A DNA stretch of 6,256 nt, taken from positions 1-6,256 of the forward strand of contig CAMJHJ010000144.1 in assembly GCA_946405485.1 (NCBI GenBank), read 5' to 3'. Source of the DNA: an uncultured Bacteroidales bacterium (GTDB taxonomy: Bacteria; Bacteroidota; Bacteroidia; Bacteroidales; UBA932). Position numbers and translations under genes: made by a program. Position 1 is the stretch's first letter. Each line of letters opens with the position of its first letter. Of the stretch, positions 147-6,186 are shown in pieces. Under the pieces are notes generated by a model, which worked only from the letters and a program-made list of their open reading frames with translations, was not told where the DNA came from and did not search any database.

Positions 147-2543
147 ATGAGAAAATATCTGTTCCTGTTCCTTCTGATCCTTTTCCCCGCAGCCCTCTTC
201 GGTCAGGACTCTTCCTCGTCCGGCTTCGGCCTGGACGCGTCCGACGCGAAGGCGGTCCGGGAGATGAGGCGTCGCATGGATGAAATCCGAAAACGCCGGC
301 CCACGGTGGCCCTCGTCCTGAGCGGGGGCGGAGCCAAGGGCGCGGCGACGGTCGGCGCCCTCAATTATCTGGAACAGTACAAGTTCCCGGTCGACATGGT
401 CGTTGGAACGAGCATCGGCGGCCTCATCGGCGGCGTGTATGCGATGGGCTACAGCCCCGCTTTCCTGGATTCCCTGATGCGGAATATGGACTGGAACCGC
501 ACGATGAGCGACAAGGTGGACTGGGAGTACATCCCGTACAACCGGCGCAAGTATAAGGAACGCTTCGTCCTGTCGTTCCCGTTCTTCTACAGCATGGAAG
601 ACTACCAGGCGCAGCGCAAGGAGGACGTCCAGTATGCCGATGCCAGCGACGGACGTCTCCATCTGTCCGCGGATGAGGACGAGCCCCGCGACCTGGTGAG
701 CAAGTCCCTCCTGAGCAGCCTCCCGTCCGGTTATATCTTCGGCCAGAACGTCCAGTACCTGATCTCCAGCATCACACCGGGACATGCGGATTCCACTGAT
801 TTCCTGCGTCTTCCGGTTCCGTTCGCCTGCGTGGCGACGGATGTCGTCTCCGGCAAGGCGAAGGTGTGGCACAGCGGCAGTCTCGGGACGGCGATGCGCT
901 CCACAATGTCCATCCCGGGCTTTTTCGCTCCCGTCCGCACGAAGGGCATGGTCCTTGTCGACGGCGGCATGCGCAACAACTTCCCGGTGGACCTCGCCCG
1001 GCAGATGGGCGCGGACGTGGTCATCGGCATCGACCTGTCCGACTCCAAGTCGGGGTATGAGGACATCCACAACATCGCCGACATCCTCTGGCGGGGCATC
1101 GACATGTTCGCGGAGGACGCTTTTGAGCGCAATGTCAAGAGTGTCGATATCCGCATCAAGCCGGATCTCAAGGGCTACGGCATGATGAGCTTCAGCGCCG
1201 GCGCGGTGGACACGATGCTGGTGCGGGGATACAAGGCCGCGGAGGAGAAGGCGGAGGAACTCGCCGCCGTGCGCCGATGGCTGGGTGACGATACCCTGCG
1301 GCTGGCGGGGAAGCCGGCCATCGACCTCAGCCACAACAAGGTTTTGATCGACAGCGTCGAGGTAACGGGCGTCACGGGCAAGGACGCGGAGTACATCCGC
1401 GCCAAGTTCAAGGTCCATGCGGGGGACGTCGTCTCCAGGACCGAGATTGAAGATGCCGTGAACACCATCTACGGCAAGGGCGCCTACGAATACATCAGTT
1501 ATGAAATGCTGGGGGAGGAAGAACCTTTCCGGCTGAGAATCAACTGTAAACGCGGTCCCAAGCACCTCCTGGGCGTGGGCTTCCGGATGGATACGGAGGA
1601 GCTGGTGTCGCTGCTGCTGAACGTGGGCCTGAACACCACGGCGATGCAGGGGCCGTCCCTGGACCTGACCGCCCGCATCGGTGCGAACCCCTATATTGAC
1701 GCGCACTACGCTTACGAGACGCCCCGCTGGCCTACCTTCAATGTGCGGGCGGACCTCCGCTGGATCGACCACAACAACTTCCTGATGGGCACGAACCACT
1801 TCAATGTCGGCTACCTTTCCTCCACGCAGGAGATCTATGCCTCCAACATGGAGTGGTCGGGTCTGGACATCAAGGGCGGCTTCCAGAACATGTATTTCAA
1901 CATCGCGCACCTGCTGGCCAGCGACGTGATCGGCGATTACGACCGCAGCCTGTGGAAAGCGGACTATCCGGGCGTCTTTATCGATGCTACCGCCTATACC
2001 CTGGATCACGGATACTTCCCGCGCCAGGGCTTCTCGGCCAACCTCCGGTACGACCTCATCTCCCGTGTCTTCGACGGCCCGAGCTATCCGGGCTTCTTCG
2101 GTATCCTGAGCGCCCAGGGTAAGATGCCTGTTCCCATCGGCCCGCGCGTCACCCTCATCCCGCAGGGCGGTCTCCGCTTCATTTTCGGTGACGACATCCC
2201 GATTCCGTACGCCAACGTGCTGGGCGGCGAGATGGCCGGCCGGTATGTGGACCATCAGCTGCCGTTCATCGGCATCAGCAACGCGGCGTTCCGGCGCAAC
2301 AATCTGGTCGTCCTGCGGATGGACCTGCGCTTCCAACTGGCTCGTAACAACTACCTTACGGGCACGTTCAACTACGGCCGCGACTTCTTCTCGTTCCGTC
2401 AGTTCGAGACGGGCGAAGACCTCTGGGGCGCTGGTGTCGGCTATGCCTACAACACCATCGTCGGCCCTCTCAAGGCGATTTTCCACTGGTCTTCGGTGAC
2501 CCGGTCCCTGGGTTTCTACGCATCTCTCGGTTTTGATTTCTGA
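147..2543 (+). CDS. Patatin-like phospholipase with POTRA and outer-membrane beta-barrel (PlpD/type Vd-like)
   Basis: This predicted surface or periplasmic lipid acyl hydrolase has 798 residues from ATG 147. Residues 1-19 form a signal peptide (MRKYLFLFLLILFPAALFG). The patatin domain spans about 52-300. It has the glycine-rich oxyanion loop SGGGAKG (59-65), the nucleophile elbow GTSIGG with Ser89, and the catalytic Asp in DGG at Asp272, so the Ser-Asp dyad is intact. A POTRA-like segment begins near 399 (VLIDSVEVTGV) and runs to about 470. The rest is rich in alternating aromatic and glycine strands typical of an Omp85-type barrel and ends in phenylalanine (ASLGFDF), as expected for a BAM substrate. 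Patatin-POTRA-barrel proteins are type Vd autotransporters (PlpD). Whether the hydrolase is released or faces the periplasm cannot be told. ATG 135 gives four extra residues and overlaps the rlmN stop. ATG 147 gives the cleaner signal peptide and is preferred. recX follows after 2 nt. Confidence 0.9.
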   Translation: MRKYLFLFLLILFPAALFGQDSSSSGFGLDASDAKAVREMRRRMDEIRKRRPTVALVLSGGGAKGAATVGALNYLEQYKFPVDMVVGTSIGGLIGGVYAMGYSPAFLDSLMRNMDWNRTMSDKVDWEYIPYNRRKYKERFVLSFPFFYSMEDYQAQRKEDVQYADASDGRLHLSADEDEPRDLVSKSLLSSLPSGYIFGQNVQYLISSITPGHADSTDFLRLPVPFACVATDVVSGKAKVWHSGSLGTAMRSTMSIPGFFAPVRTKGMVLVDGGMRNNFPVDLARQMGADVVIGIDLSDSKSGYEDIHNIADILWRGIDMFAEDAFERNVKSVDIRIKPDLKGYGMMSFSAGAVDTMLVRGYKAAEEKAEELAAVRRWLGDDTLRLAGKPAIDLSHNKVLIDSVEVTGVTGKDAEYIRAKFKVHAGDVVSRTEIEDAVNTIYGKGAYEYISYEMLGEEEPFRLRINCKRGPKHLLGVGFRMDTEELVSLLLNVGLNTTAMQGPSLDLTARIGANPYIDAHYAYETPRWPTFNVRADLRWIDHNNFLMGTNHFNVGYLSSTQEIYASNMEWSGLDIKGGFQNMYFNIAHLLASDVIGDYDRSLWKADYPGVFIDATAYTLDHGYFPRQGFSANLRYDLISRVFDGPSYPGFFGILSAQGKMPVPIGPRVTLIPQGGLRFIFGDDIPIPYANVLGGEMAGRYVDHQLPFIGISNAAFRRNNLVVLRMDLRFQLARNNYLTGTFNYGRDFFSFRQFETGEDLWGAGVGYAYNTIVGPLKAIFHWSSVTRSLGFYASLGFDF

Positions 2544-3010: not shown

Positions 3011-4365
3011 AACATTTCTTCTTGGCGTTCACCGCCCTTTTCCTGGCTGTCATTCCGAGCGAAGCCTCTGTCATTCCGAGCGAAGCGAAGGAATCTGATT
3101 TCGACGCATTCTTCGAAAACTCCACCCTCCGCCTCGACTACGTCTTCTGCGGCGACAACGCCCACCAGGCCATTTATTTCCAGCAGGCCCTCCGGACCTC
3201 CGAATGGGCGGGCCGACGGGAGAATCTCTCCGAGCCGCTGCTCGAGGGAAACGGCCAGATCCGCGTCCTGAATCCGGAGACGGGGGAGTGCCTGTATGCC
3301 AATTCCTTCTCCACCCTGTTCCAGGAATGGCAGGTGGAAGAGGAGGCGACCCGGGTGCAGAAGGCTTTCGAGAACTGCTTCCAGGTGCCTTTCCCCAAGC
3401 AGCCGGTGGATATCGAGGTCTTCCTCATGGACACGCACCGTCAGCGGTCCTCCTATCTGAAACACCGTATTGACCCGACGGACATCCTGATCCGAAAAGT
3501 GGCGGACAACGGCTATTCTTCCACCGTGGTCTGGCAGGGCGGTCCGCTGGACGAAACCATCGACATTGTCGTGGTCTCCGAGGGTTATGGCGCGTCGGAG
3601 AAGGCGAAGTTCTACCGTGACGCGGAGCACGTCGCGACGGCGCTCTTCCGCCATGAGCCGTTTGCCGCGAACCGGAACAAGTTCACCATCCGGGCCGTCT
3701 TCGTGCCCTCCCTGGATTCCGGCGTGAGCGTTCCCCGCATGGGGGGATGGAAGCGCACCCCGCTGGACAGTCACTTCGACACTTTTTATATCGACCGCTA
3801 CTTGACTACCTCCGCGCAGCAGAAGGTCTATGACGCCATCGGCACCGTCCCCTTCGAGCACATCGTCGTGATGGTCAATACCGGCATCTACGGTGGCGGC
3901 GGCATCTACAACTCCCTGACAATCATGAACTCCGACCATCCGACCTTCAACGCCGTGATGGTCCATGAGTTCGGCCACGCCTTCGGCGGCCTCGCTGACG
4001 AGTACGCCTACGGCGACCAGGTGGAAACCTCGTATCCGGCCGATACGGAACCCTGGGAACCGAACATCACGACGCTCCATGACTTCGGTGCCAAGTGGCA
4101 GGATATGCTCCCCGCCGGCACCGCGATTCCCACGCCGCTCGACGACCTGGACAAGCAGGATGTCCGTCGAATCTGGCAGACCTTCACCCCGGAGCAGAAA
4201 GCCCTGCTGAACTTGAAGATCGGCGTCTATGAAGGCGCCGGCTACCAGTCCAAAGGTGTCTACCGCCCCGTCCAGGAATGTCGCATGCGCATCAACGAAT
4301 GCGAAGAATTCTGCCCCGTCTGCACCCGCGCCATCGTCCGGATGATTGAGTACTATACCCGGTAG
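3007..4365 (+). CDS. Secreted M64-family (IgA peptidase-like) zinc metallopeptidase
   Basis: The predicted exported zinc peptidase has 452 residues. The signal peptide is about residues 1-20 (MKHFFLAFTALFLAVIPSEA), with a plausible signal peptidase I site after Ser18-Glu19-Ala20. An N-terminal M64_N-like beta domain covers about 33-150. The catalytic domain starts near 180 with D-I-V-V-V-S-E-G-Y-G. It carries the zinc site H320-E-F-G-H324, followed by F-G-G-L-A-D331-E-Y. The two histidines are the expected ligands, Glu321 is the catalytic base, and Asp331 is the likely further ligand. Four cysteines at 425, 432, 436 and 439 near the C-terminus fit the family's cysteine-rich tail. M64 was founded on a Clostridium ramosum IgA protease; many Bacteroidetes members are uncharacterised, so the substrate is unknown and IgA cleavage should not be assumed. 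The start overlaps the recX stop by 4 nt. Residues 15-30 derive from a repeat found again in the next gene. Confidence 0.88.
   Translation: MKHFFLAFTALFLAVIPSEASVIPSEAKESDFDAFFENSTLRLDYVFCGDNAHQAIYFQQALRTSEWAGRRENLSEPLLEGNGQIRVLNPETGECLYANSFSTLFQEWQVEEEATRVQKAFENCFQVPFPKQPVDIEVFLMDTHRQRSSYLKHRIDPTDILIRKVADNGYSSTVVWQGGPLDETIDIVVVSEGYGASEKAKFYRDAEHVATALFRHEPFAANRNKFTIRAVFVPSLDSGVSVPRMGGWKRTPLDSHFDTFYIDRYLTTSAQQKVYDAIGTVPFEHIVVMVNTGIYGGGGIYNSLTIMNSDHPTFNAVMVHEFGHAFGGLADEYAYGDQVETSYPADTEPWEPNITTLHDFGAKWQDMLPAGTAIPTPLDDLDKQDVRRIWQTFTPEQKALLNLKIGVYEGAGYQSKGVYRPVQECRMRINECEEFCPVCTRAIVRMIEYYTR
3049..3096 (+). repeat. REP-like short palindromic repeat, partial plus full copy, in the M64 gene
   Basis: A partial copy starting gtcattccgagcgaag (3049-3064) is followed exactly 21 nt later by a full 27-nt copy (3070-3096). 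The full copy has attcc (3073-3077) and ggaat (3090-3094) as short inverted arms around a 12-nt centre containing two gcgaa units. The copies are read in one frame as V-I-P-S-E-A-S and V-I-P-S-E-A-K-E-S, at residues 15-30 of the M64 peptidase. Bases 3067-3097 are identical to 5344-5374 in the sigma-barrel gene. Similar palindromic motifs are dispersed in many bacterial genomes, often between genes. Genome-wide copy number cannot be seen here. Confidence 0.8.
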
Positions 4366-4380
4366 CTTTTTTCACTTTTG

Positions 4381-4412
4381 ACGCAGTATTCCTGTAATGC
4401 CGGAGTTATATA
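4381..4412 (+). promoter_or_regulatory. Bipartite element upstream of the sigma-barrel gene (candidate promoter/operator)
   Basis: The 10-mer acgcagtatt (4381-4390) and the 8-mer gttatata (4405-4412) are separated by 14 nt. The same two words with the same 14-nt spacing recur at 6155-6186 in front of the next gene, while the 14 bases between them differ. Two conserved blocks with fixed spacing and a free middle are what a sigma-factor promoter or a dyad-binding regulator would leave. The second block ends 4 nt before ATG 4417. If it were a -10 box, the message would be almost leaderless, so an operator role is also possible. The spacer also holds a run of six T (4367-4372) without a convincing hairpin. 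Confidence 0.55.
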
Positions 4413-4416
4413 ACTG

Positions 4417-6153
4417 ATGGAAGAGCAGGAACTGGCCCTCCGTTGCGCCCGGGGAGACAATGCCGCGCGCAGGGAACTGTACATTCAGTACGGCTCCCGG
4501 ATTCTTGCGCTTTGCCGTCGCTATGTCTCCGACCCTGCCGATGCGGAAGACCTGAAGCAGGATGCTTTCGTCAAGATATTCCGTGTCATCGGCCGTTTCC
4601 GGTGGACGCGTCCCGGTTCGCTGTATGCCTGGATGTCGCGGGTCACGATCAATATGGCCTTCGATTCGTACGGAAAGCGTCGTCGCCTGGCCAAGCAGCT
4701 GGTGGATGTGAACGAAATGGAGAATACCATTCCGGACGAATCGACCTATGAAGAGGCCGCTTCGGTGCCGCCGGAAGTGCTTGCAGCGATGATTGACGCA
4801 TTGCCGGAGGGCTATCGGACCGTTTTCAAGCTATATTGCATCGATGGGCTTTCCCACAAGGATATCTCCGCCCTGCTCGGCATCAAGGAGAAGAGTTCAT
4901 CGGCCAGCCTTGCGCGGGCTCGGGCGCTCCTTTCTGATGCCATCCGGGAGTATTGGCGGAACGAGGAAGAAGGAACATCCCCCGACAGCTGGTCCCGCAT
5001 CCTCCGCAAAATGCATCGTGCCGCCGCGTTGCGTGCCTCCGCCATTGCCGTGGCAGTGTTACTGCCCGTTTCCTCCCTTCTTCTCTGGCACTCTTCCCGC
5101 CAGCCCTCCGCTCCAGCTATTGCGGAAGTCCCCCCGACCGTTCCGGAAGAACCTGCACCTATCCTTGAAGAACCGACTGCTGTTCCGGAAGATACATTCC
5201 TTCCCTTCAGCAGGCCCTCGGTCTCGTTGAACATCCCTTCTGTCGTCCAGGGCGATTCTTCTTCCATTCCGAGCGATTCCTCTGTCGGCCCGAATGATTC
5301 CTCTGTCGTTCCGAACGACCCTTCTGTCATTCCGAGCGATTCTTCTGTCATTCCGAGCGAAGCGAAGGAATCTGTCTCCAGCCCTGACTCGACCTCCTCC
5401 GCCACTCCTCGCTCGCCCCGGAATCTCCCGCCCGATCCCATCGACCCCTTCCTCACCCTTACCGAGCAGATCCAGCGGCAGCGCCCCCGCGTCTCCCTCA
5501 GCTTCCGGGCAGGCTCCGGAACCAACCGCCGGAGAACGGATGTCAGTTTGAATTCGACGCCCTATATCGCCGCCTTGACCTATATGAACCAGGTCGATCC
5601 TCGATTCCGACCGGATGTCCGTTCCAATTACGGCAACGCGATCGAATGGCTGGCGAATAATGCGGCTCCCGGTTCCTTCACATCGGGTGTCAACCGTTAT
5701 CGACACGACCTTCCTGTGTCGTTGGGCATTACGGCCCGTATGGAGCTCACACCGCGGACGGGCGTCGAAAGCGGGCTTGAATATACCTATCTGCATTCCA
5801 CCGTCGATTCGGATGGCGGTCAGATGAGCCAGCGGCTGCATTTCGTGGGCATTCCCGTGCGGATGGACACCCGGTTATGGACCGGGAACGGACTTGACCT
5901 GTATGCCGGCCTTGGCGTCAAGGCGGAGAAATGCATTGCCGCTTCCATGGGCTATGTCAAATGTGAAGAGCCCCGCCTCCAGTGGTCCACTGGGGCGTTT
6001 GCCGGTGTTCAATACCGGATCGGCACCCGGTCCCACCTCTATTTCCAGCCGGAATTCTCCTACAGTTTCACGAAAACGGACCTAGTCACTTACCGCACCG
6101 AAACCCCGATCGTGTTCACGCTCAACGCCGGATTGCGTTTTGACTTGAAATAA
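4417..6153 (+). CDS. ECF sigma factor fused to a transmembrane helix, periplasmic linker and outer-membrane beta-barrel
   Basis: This is one open 578-codon frame. Sigma2 is at about 15-92, with the region 2.2 core D-A-E-D-L-K-Q-D-A-F (42-51) and region 2.3/2.4 R-F-R-W to K-R-R-R (60-90). Sigma4 is at about 119-180, with A-L-P-E-G-Y-R-T-V-F (128-137) and the helix-turn-helix LSHKDISALLGIKEKS (145-160). Only about 23 residues separate sigma4 from a single hydrophobic helix at 204-224, flanked on the cytoplasmic side by R194, R197, K198, R201 and R206, so the N-terminus should be inside. A Pro/Glu/Ser-rich linker follows (225-356), including a heptad repeat (276-319). The segment 357-578 has about eight amphipathic strands, like a small OmpA/PorT-type barrel, with Cys506 and Cys516 in one loop. 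Bacteroidetes often carry ECF sigma and TM-plus-barrel proteins as separate neighbouring genes; here they are continuous. Family role: promoter-specific transcription. Inferred: membrane-tethered control from the envelope. A sequencing error joining two genes is possible but would have to be frame-neutral. Confidence 0.85.
   Translation: MEEQELALRCARGDNAARRELYIQYGSRILALCRRYVSDPADAEDLKQDAFVKIFRVIGRFRWTRPGSLYAWMSRVTINMAFDSYGKRRRLAKQLVDVNEMENTIPDESTYEEAASVPPEVLAAMIDALPEGYRTVFKLYCIDGLSHKDISALLGIKEKSSSASLARARALLSDAIREYWRNEEEGTSPDSWSRILRKMHRAAALRASAIAVAVLLPVSSLLLWHSSRQPSAPAIAEVPPTVPEEPAPILEEPTAVPEDTFLPFSRPSVSLNIPSVVQGDSSSIPSDSSVGPNDSSVVPNDPSVIPSDSSVIPSEAKESVSSPDSTSSATPRSPRNLPPDPIDPFLTLTEQIQRQRPRVSLSFRAGSGTNRRRTDVSLNSTPYIAALTYMNQVDPRFRPDVRSNYGNAIEWLANNAAPGSFTSGVNRYRHDLPVSLGITARMELTPRTGVESGLEYTYLHSTVDSDGGQMSQRLHFVGIPVRMDTRLWTGNGLDLYAGLGVKAEKCIAASMGYVKCEEPRLQWSTGAFAGVQYRIGTRSHLYFQPEFSYSFTKTDLVTYRTETPIVFTLNAGLRFDLK
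5242..5373 (+). repeat. 21-nt tandem repeat ending in a REP-like motif, in the sigma-barrel linker
   Basis: Five 21-nt units (5242-5262, 5263-5283, 5284-5304, 5305-5325, 5326-5346) are followed by a 27-nt terminal unit (5347-5373). They encode VVQGDSS, SIPSDSS, VGPNDSS, VVPNDPS, VIPSDSS and VIPSEAKES, residues 276-319. Units 2, 5 and 6 share attccgagcga. The last unit is identical to the full copy in the M64 gene, with identity extending over 5344-5374. The divergence between units shows the array is not a very recent duplication, although the terminal motif itself is perfectly conserved. All units keep the reading frame, giving a flexible acidic/serine/proline spacer in the predicted periplasmic part. 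Confidence 0.85.
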
Positions 6154-6154
6154 T

Positions 6155-6186
6155 ACGCAGTATTTTGACGGAAAGGGCGTTATATA
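6155..6186 (+). promoter_or_regulatory. Second copy of the bipartite element, upstream of the last gene
   Basis: The 10-mer acgcagtatt (6155-6164) and the 8-mer gttatata (6179-6186) are again exactly 14 nt apart, matching 4381-4412. It starts 2 nt after the sigma-barrel stop codon and ends 24 nt before ATG 6211, a distance compatible with a -10 box and a short leader. This copy therefore favours a promoter reading more than the first copy does. There is no obvious terminator hairpin between the sigma-barrel stop and this element. Confidence 0.55.

Follow-up and report, generated by a model that had tools for sequence, protein, structure and literature searches.

Dual-membrane-spanning anti-sigma systems are new and little understood. 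As described in the available part of PMC13088901, Dma1 and Dma2 of B. thetaiotaomicron are composed of a cytoplasmic head, a transmembrane (TM) helix, a long disordered tether and a C-terminal beta-barrel, with Das1 and Das2 as the cognate ECF sigma factors, and Dma1/Das1 act through nigD1. The same text describes Dma3 (bt_2778-2779 locus), which carries an N-terminal cognate sigma domain and has no separate ECF21 gene. Fused sigma/anti-sigma proteins are listed in the available part of PMC8999054, namely IutY and, as predicted cases, ECF48, ECF52 and ECF53; IutY of Pseudomonas putida (ECF243) is released by Prc and RseP (PMC5411451, available part). Proteins of the kind studied here are already in print, as the sigma-bearing Dma3 and the fused sigma/anti-sigma proteins. 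An earlier note on this DNA, which knew of no characterised protein with such a layout, is corrected by Dma3. In the literature covered, a sigma-bearing Dma was found in the available part of PMC13088901 only; the ECF reclassification lies outside that scope and may list the layout earlier.

The window, that is, the whole stretch of 6,256 nucleotides that was analyzed, holds a gene (P0001) in which a sigma factor is followed, in one frame, by a TM helix, a tether and a barrel (Table 1). The Pfam models PF04542 and PF08281 both match P0001 above cut-off, giving the region 2 and region 4 of an ECF sigma factor within about 180 residues, and the bacteroidete sigma subfamily model TIGR02985 matches below its own cut-off. 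Sequence matches in the PDB were AlgU, SigE, CnrH and SigW, and the predicted folds of the sigma regions agree with solved structures, region by region. Hydropathy and the structure model both gave one TM helix, and in the model the helix runs unbroken over residues 191-226. The tether has 128 residues with pLDDT mostly below 50. The C-terminal part was modelled as an 8-strand barrel, which fold comparison identified as OmpA-like. In the first AlphaFold model sigma region 2 was poor; a deeper alignment raised pLDDT to 94-98 over residues 1-80. The pTM of the model is 0.47 and alignments of the whole sigma part to solved structures have rmsd values of 13-21 Å, with only single regions fitting, and the placing of sigma relative to the helix in the model is untrustworthy. 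The sigma domain should be cytoplasmic, because it precedes a positive-inside helix, and since the tether and barrel come after that helix, the predicted chain should start in the cytoplasm, cross the inner membrane and the periplasm, and end as a barrel in the outer membrane. The single positive-inside helix and the C-terminal barrel proposed in the earlier note were thus borne out, as was its suggestion that the linker can span the periplasm (88-133 residues across 83 aligned fused proteins).

Table 1. Features of the fused gene and its surroundings, in window coordinates.
Feature	Position	Strand	Remarks
Promoter-like motif	4383..4410	+	GCAGTA-N16-GTTATA (= GCAGTATT-N14-GTTATA), 28 nt; 6 nt before fusion gene start codon
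Fused sigma-TM-tether-barrel gene P0001	4417..6153	+	578 aa
Sigma region 2	4477..4686	+	Residues 21-90
Sigma region 4	4780..4932	+	Residues 122-172
Fusion junction	4951..5025	+	Residues 179-203; second half of Dma-type cytoplasmic head (SPDSWSRILRKM), by alignment to split relatives
Inner-membrane helix	5026..5094	+	Residues about 204-226; positive inside, by hydropathy
Periplasmic tether	5095..5478	+	Residues 227-354; Ser/Pro-rich, predicted disordered
21-nt tandem array within tether	5237..5360	+	5.9 copies; related to dispersed genomic repeat
8-strand outer-membrane barrel (predicted)	5479..6150	+	Residues 355-578; C-terminus GLRFDLK
Promoter-like motif, second copy	6157..6184	+	26 nt before next gene
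Next gene, first 15 codons	6211..6256	+	Window end cuts the rest

Of 7996 candidates scored in the protein search, 136 were relatives at E<=1e-3, and 120 of these are among the matches listed. Together with the window protein the 120 form the set P0001-P0121, in which sigma and barrel occur together in 85 proteins (with both parts near full length in 81), the barrel alone in 35 and sigma alone in one (P0085). The continuous architecture therefore recurs in 85 of 121 proteins, from many contigs, which confirms the one-frame fusion of sigma to barrel among the matches listed. A 95-row alignment was made from 83 of the 85 fused and 12 of the 35 barrel-only proteins; P0043, P0085 and P0109 were omitted from it, from the trees and from the second modelling alignment. 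The earlier note had pointed to a stop codon or frameshift in the junction as evidence that would speak against the fusion; segment 179-203 holds exactly 25 residues in 82 of the 83 aligned fused proteins and 34 in P0083. One fused relative, L001, comes from a water-buffalo cecum genome and shares the neighbours patatin-recX-M64 with the window. At window 147-2543 a single protein combines a patatin-like phospholipase, a weak match to POTRA and a barrel of the Omp85 type; recX and an M64 peptidase gene come next, and this order also lies upstream of the fusion in L001.

The scan of species genomes gave 14 loci, of which L001 is fused, 11 are split and two (L012 and L014) are cut off by a contig end within the barrel gene, so that the sigma gene could not be judged. 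The 11 split loci (with two copies in L010) and L034 supply 13 two-gene copies. The sigma gene lies directly upstream of the barrel gene in all 13, in agreement with the earlier note, which had given a separate next gene as the usual layout. The two genes overlap in L002, L003 and L034 and are otherwise at most 45 nt apart. In the genus of L001, 10 of 400 sampled genomes matched at E<=1e-85, three with fused and seven with split genes. In the order-wide sample 65 of 295 genomes had a profile match at E<=1e-40, with at most four candidates scored per genome; among the matches listed, a long frame was seen in G001 only and the others had at most 248 residues. Thirty loci were fetched from this search: one is fused, in 21 the barrel model matched a frame that is separate and adjacent, and eight have no barrel match. 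Nine more distant sigma and barrel pairs in genomes with the fused or split system (L035-L041 and L044, with two in L039) were all split. Separately, L080 305-1570 (G546, another Bacteroidales genome) holds a 421-residue frame that joins sigma to a segment which by eye is TM-like, followed by a separate frame that looks barrel-like; this is perhaps a different sigma-membrane fusion.

Comparison with the barrel-only proteins shows what lies at the junction. Their head reads NKDWxDAVREx...SPxxWxxIxRKMRR and is followed by the helix. The fused proteins retain the second half of this head alone: the DWxDAVRE-type motif, which was derived from the present alignments and not from the Dma paper, occurs in 30 of the 35 barrel-only proteins versus none of the 85 fused proteins among the matches listed. 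Of the five barrel-only proteins lacking it, two read GW, two begin just past the Trp and one is a fragment. The earlier note had held that too few residues separate sigma from the helix for a normal anti-sigma domain. This stands for the first half of the head, which is missing from the fused proteins; it does not stand for the stretch itself, which is SPxxWxxIxRKM, the second half of the short cytoplasmic head of the two-gene relatives. In the 95 aligned fused and split proteins W192 is invariant and I195, K198 and M199 are conserved at 90% or more. This conservation suggests that a contact has been kept, because the second half is conserved in fused and split proteins alike; the retained half-head may nevertheless fail to inhibit sigma, because the first-half motif is missing from all 85 fused proteins.

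The absence of the first-half motif and the constant junction would also suit a sigma factor that has no anti-sigma domain and is limited by membrane confinement alone, perhaps acting while attached. This we consider unlikely, as fused and split proteins both retain the second half of the head and an active membrane-bound sigma factor would be unusual. The probable reading, from sequence, model and analogy together, is a one-piece Das-Dma, in which an ECF sigma factor shares a frame with its own anti-sigma-type partner that spans both membranes, and for which we infer a resting hold, a release and a firing of targets. At rest, sigma would be held at the inner membrane, with the short retained helix probably capping it. 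A change sensed by the barrel or tether would let a site-1 protease reach the periplasmic part, and cleavage by the inner-membrane protease RseP would follow; it is from the analogy to IutY that we infer proteolytic release. An RseP-type M50 protease was present in all three fused genomes but also in all 14 control genomes, so that its presence does not discriminate. The freed sigma would then act at the predicted GCAGTATT-N14-GTTATA promoters to transcribe its own gene and the lipoprotein gene next to it. Fusion would make the ratio of sigma to sensor strictly 1:1 and would entail the loss of the promoter-like site that most two-gene relatives have ahead of the barrel gene. It is very unlikely that the protein is instead cut constitutively soon after synthesis, the fusion merely co-expressing free sigma and barrel. 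The linker is of low complexity and predicted to be disordered, and such sequence is often protease-prone, but the junction keeps its length while the linker varies, and the two-gene relatives already have overlapping or closely spaced genes.

The fusion is a maintained gene and no artefact, judged by its frame, its conserved junction length and its low dN/dS values. Between the window and L001, dN/dS was 0.11 for sigma, 0.15 for the junction, 0.16 for the TM helix, 0.37 for the linker and 0.30 for the barrel. In two distant pairs the TM value was 0.61 and 0.42, so conservation of the helix is weaker there, and many more distant comparisons had saturated dS and gave no ratio. By these ratios the fused gene is under purifying selection on both sides of the junction. 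An assembly or frameshift error that joined two genes can be dismissed, since the frame and junction are conserved in fused proteins from many contigs and dN/dS is low on either side, even though the two-gene layout is commoner in the order (one fused locus against 21 with a separate barrel frame in the 30 fetched) and P0043, P0085 and P0109 appear, in our judgement of the alignment, to be frame-broken in the barrel part. Within the linker, the tether has grown, to judge from its sequence, by a 21-nt tandem array (window 5237-5376) related to the dispersed repeat CATTCCGAGCGAAGCGAAGGAATC. This repeat also occurs at window 3047-3098, in the part of the M64 peptidase gene that encodes the N-terminus. 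When at most two mismatches were allowed, there were 15 copies in G001 (backward control 0), four in G002 and none in G341 or G030.

Across 25 sources totalling 245,598 bases the promoter-like motif had 24 matches, where mononucleotide shuffles gave an expectation of 0.45; these sources were selected for carrying the systems, and L002/L003, L004/L006 and L008/L009 are near-copies. The gap was 16 in 23 of the 24 matches, with 14-24 allowed. All 17 sigma copies have the motif no more than 60 nt upstream of the start of sigma (nine strict, five with one and three with two mismatches). Before the barrel gene it was found in 11 of 13 split copies (four strict, the rest with at most three mismatches), sometimes inside the end of the sigma gene, and at up to three mismatches it was not found in L002 and L003. 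Among 5100 random 60-mers drawn from these loci without removal of the real sites, there were 24 strict matches and 44 with at most three mismatches. Within 150 nt after the barrel stop, the motif was present in four of four fused loci versus four of 13 split copies. The strict motif in the four fused loci occurs at the two ends only, and in L001 at the downstream end only, the site upstream of its fused gene having two mismatches. In three whole fusion genomes there are two exact sites in G001, one in G341 and two in G030 (backward control 0). Four of these five sit at the fusion locus, which suggests an autoregulated, near-private circuit; the fifth (L049 1501-1528, minus strand, in G001) precedes by 5 nt a lipoprotein gene whose product we take to be a phosphate-binding PstS. 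By eye, the more distant paralogues have different upstream sequences. Because its spacing and self-location fit, the pattern points to a putative autoregulated ECF promoter.

The next gene, in seven relatives, encodes a putative lipoprotein of 170-185 residues with a lipobox-like start. Pfam scans of five of the seven gave no match above cut-off and no NigD, and a NigD identity was therefore set aside for the five scanned. With NCBIfam, the L001 protein had no match and the L002 protein had two matches far below cut-off. Elsewhere in the genome of L001 (G001:C58:23674-24532), a NigD_C match adjoins the sigma gene of another, split sigma and barrel pair, which recalls the published Dma1-nigD1 link.

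The number of fusions was judged from a barrel tree (143 rows), a sigma tree (33 chosen fused proteins and the loci) and AU tests on 45 and 31 chosen rows. The barrel tree needs three changes of the fused/split label, and the starred branches of the sigma tree force one change only. One of the three changes concerns P0051, P0055 and P0061, whose barrels nest with the split relatives of P0086 and whose sigma domains sit inside the main fused clade; it is thus more likely that these proteins swapped a barrel with a split lineage and kept their sigma. On either tree P0083 falls among split proteins, next to P0091 by its barrel (99/92) and to L002/L003 by its sigma (91/84), and its junction, nine residues longer, keeps a sigma tail resembling that of split L002. 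A second independent fusion is favoured for P0083, because of these placements and the longer junction, and it is not proven: one clade of P0083 and the main fused group was not rejected by the AU test (barrel p 0.217, sigma p 0.101). A single clade of all fused proteins was rejected on barrels (p 0.014), and this rejection vanishes without the three swap rows. On the sigma tree split rows fall within fused rows, so split genes may have arisen by fission of an ancestral fusion; the similar Trp-containing head seen by eye in split paralogues argues for split as the ancestral state. We are doubtful of a bolder reading, in which one molecule would carry the full path from cell surface to RNA polymerase and have no functional anti-sigma domain. 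On this reading the fusion would have deleted the half of the Dma head that binds sigma and have arisen at least two times with different junctions, sigma would be controlled by tethering between two membranes alone, and the circuit would be essentially the gene of the fusion and one lipoprotein.

The search for other long proteins sharing words with P0001 residues 1-182 gave 87 matches at E<=1e-10, of which 84 belong to the same family. The other three have kinase domains (P0122), a cation-efflux domain (P0123) and NigD domains (P0124). The last is a 425-residue metagenomic protein with the NigD domains before sigma, possibly a read-through or an assembly join of neighbours. In 11 genomes of one genus, which is Bacteroides-like by size and NigD content and maybe not that of Dma3, no sigma frame above 320 residues was found at E<=1e-12; in four of them the PF08281 frames had at most 307 residues among the matches listed.

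The layout is real and conserved in uncultured Bacteroidales, and unites in one piece a sensing system that was recently described as two genes. What is new here is the conserved fused clade in uncultured Bacteroidales, the loss of half of the head, a probable second fusion and a predicted promoter-target circuit. The relatives form a graded series, from separate genes with a promoter-like site each, through overlapping genes without one (L002, L003), to one protein. The family has close sisters with two genes, and a promoter and one neighbouring target are predicted for it; it offers a compact setting in which to ask how a barrel in the outer membrane signals to sigma by way of a tether.

Among known systems, ECF48, ECF52 and ECF53 of Actinobacteria resemble P0001 in having sigma with a C-terminal, TM-containing regulatory extension, but these are zinc-finger/TM extensions and the available part of PMC8999054 mentions no outer-membrane barrel. 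IutY likewise combines sigma, TM helix and periplasmic part in one polypeptide and is activated by proteolysis; however, as far as described in the available part of PMC5411451, its anti-sigma domain lies in the periplasm and IutA, its outer-membrane receptor, is a separate protein, whereas the barrel of P0001 is within the chain. A FecR-type periplasmic domain gave no Pfam match in P0001 up to E 1. Dma1 and Dma2 have sigma and anti-sigma as two genes in the available account, whereas P0001 is one polypeptide without the first half of the head, and Dma1/Das1 use nigD1, whereas the next gene here encodes a putative lipoprotein with no NigD match in the five scanned. The layout otherwise matches the Dma/Das family of Bacteroidota: like the Dma systems (PMC13088901, available part), P0001 has a TM helix, a long disordered tether, a C-terminal beta-barrel and a cognate sigma, with sigma N-terminal in its frame and encoded by the adjacent gene in the split relatives. 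Dma3, compared by its description alone in that text, has the sigma domain at the N-terminus of a Dma-type protein, as does P0001.
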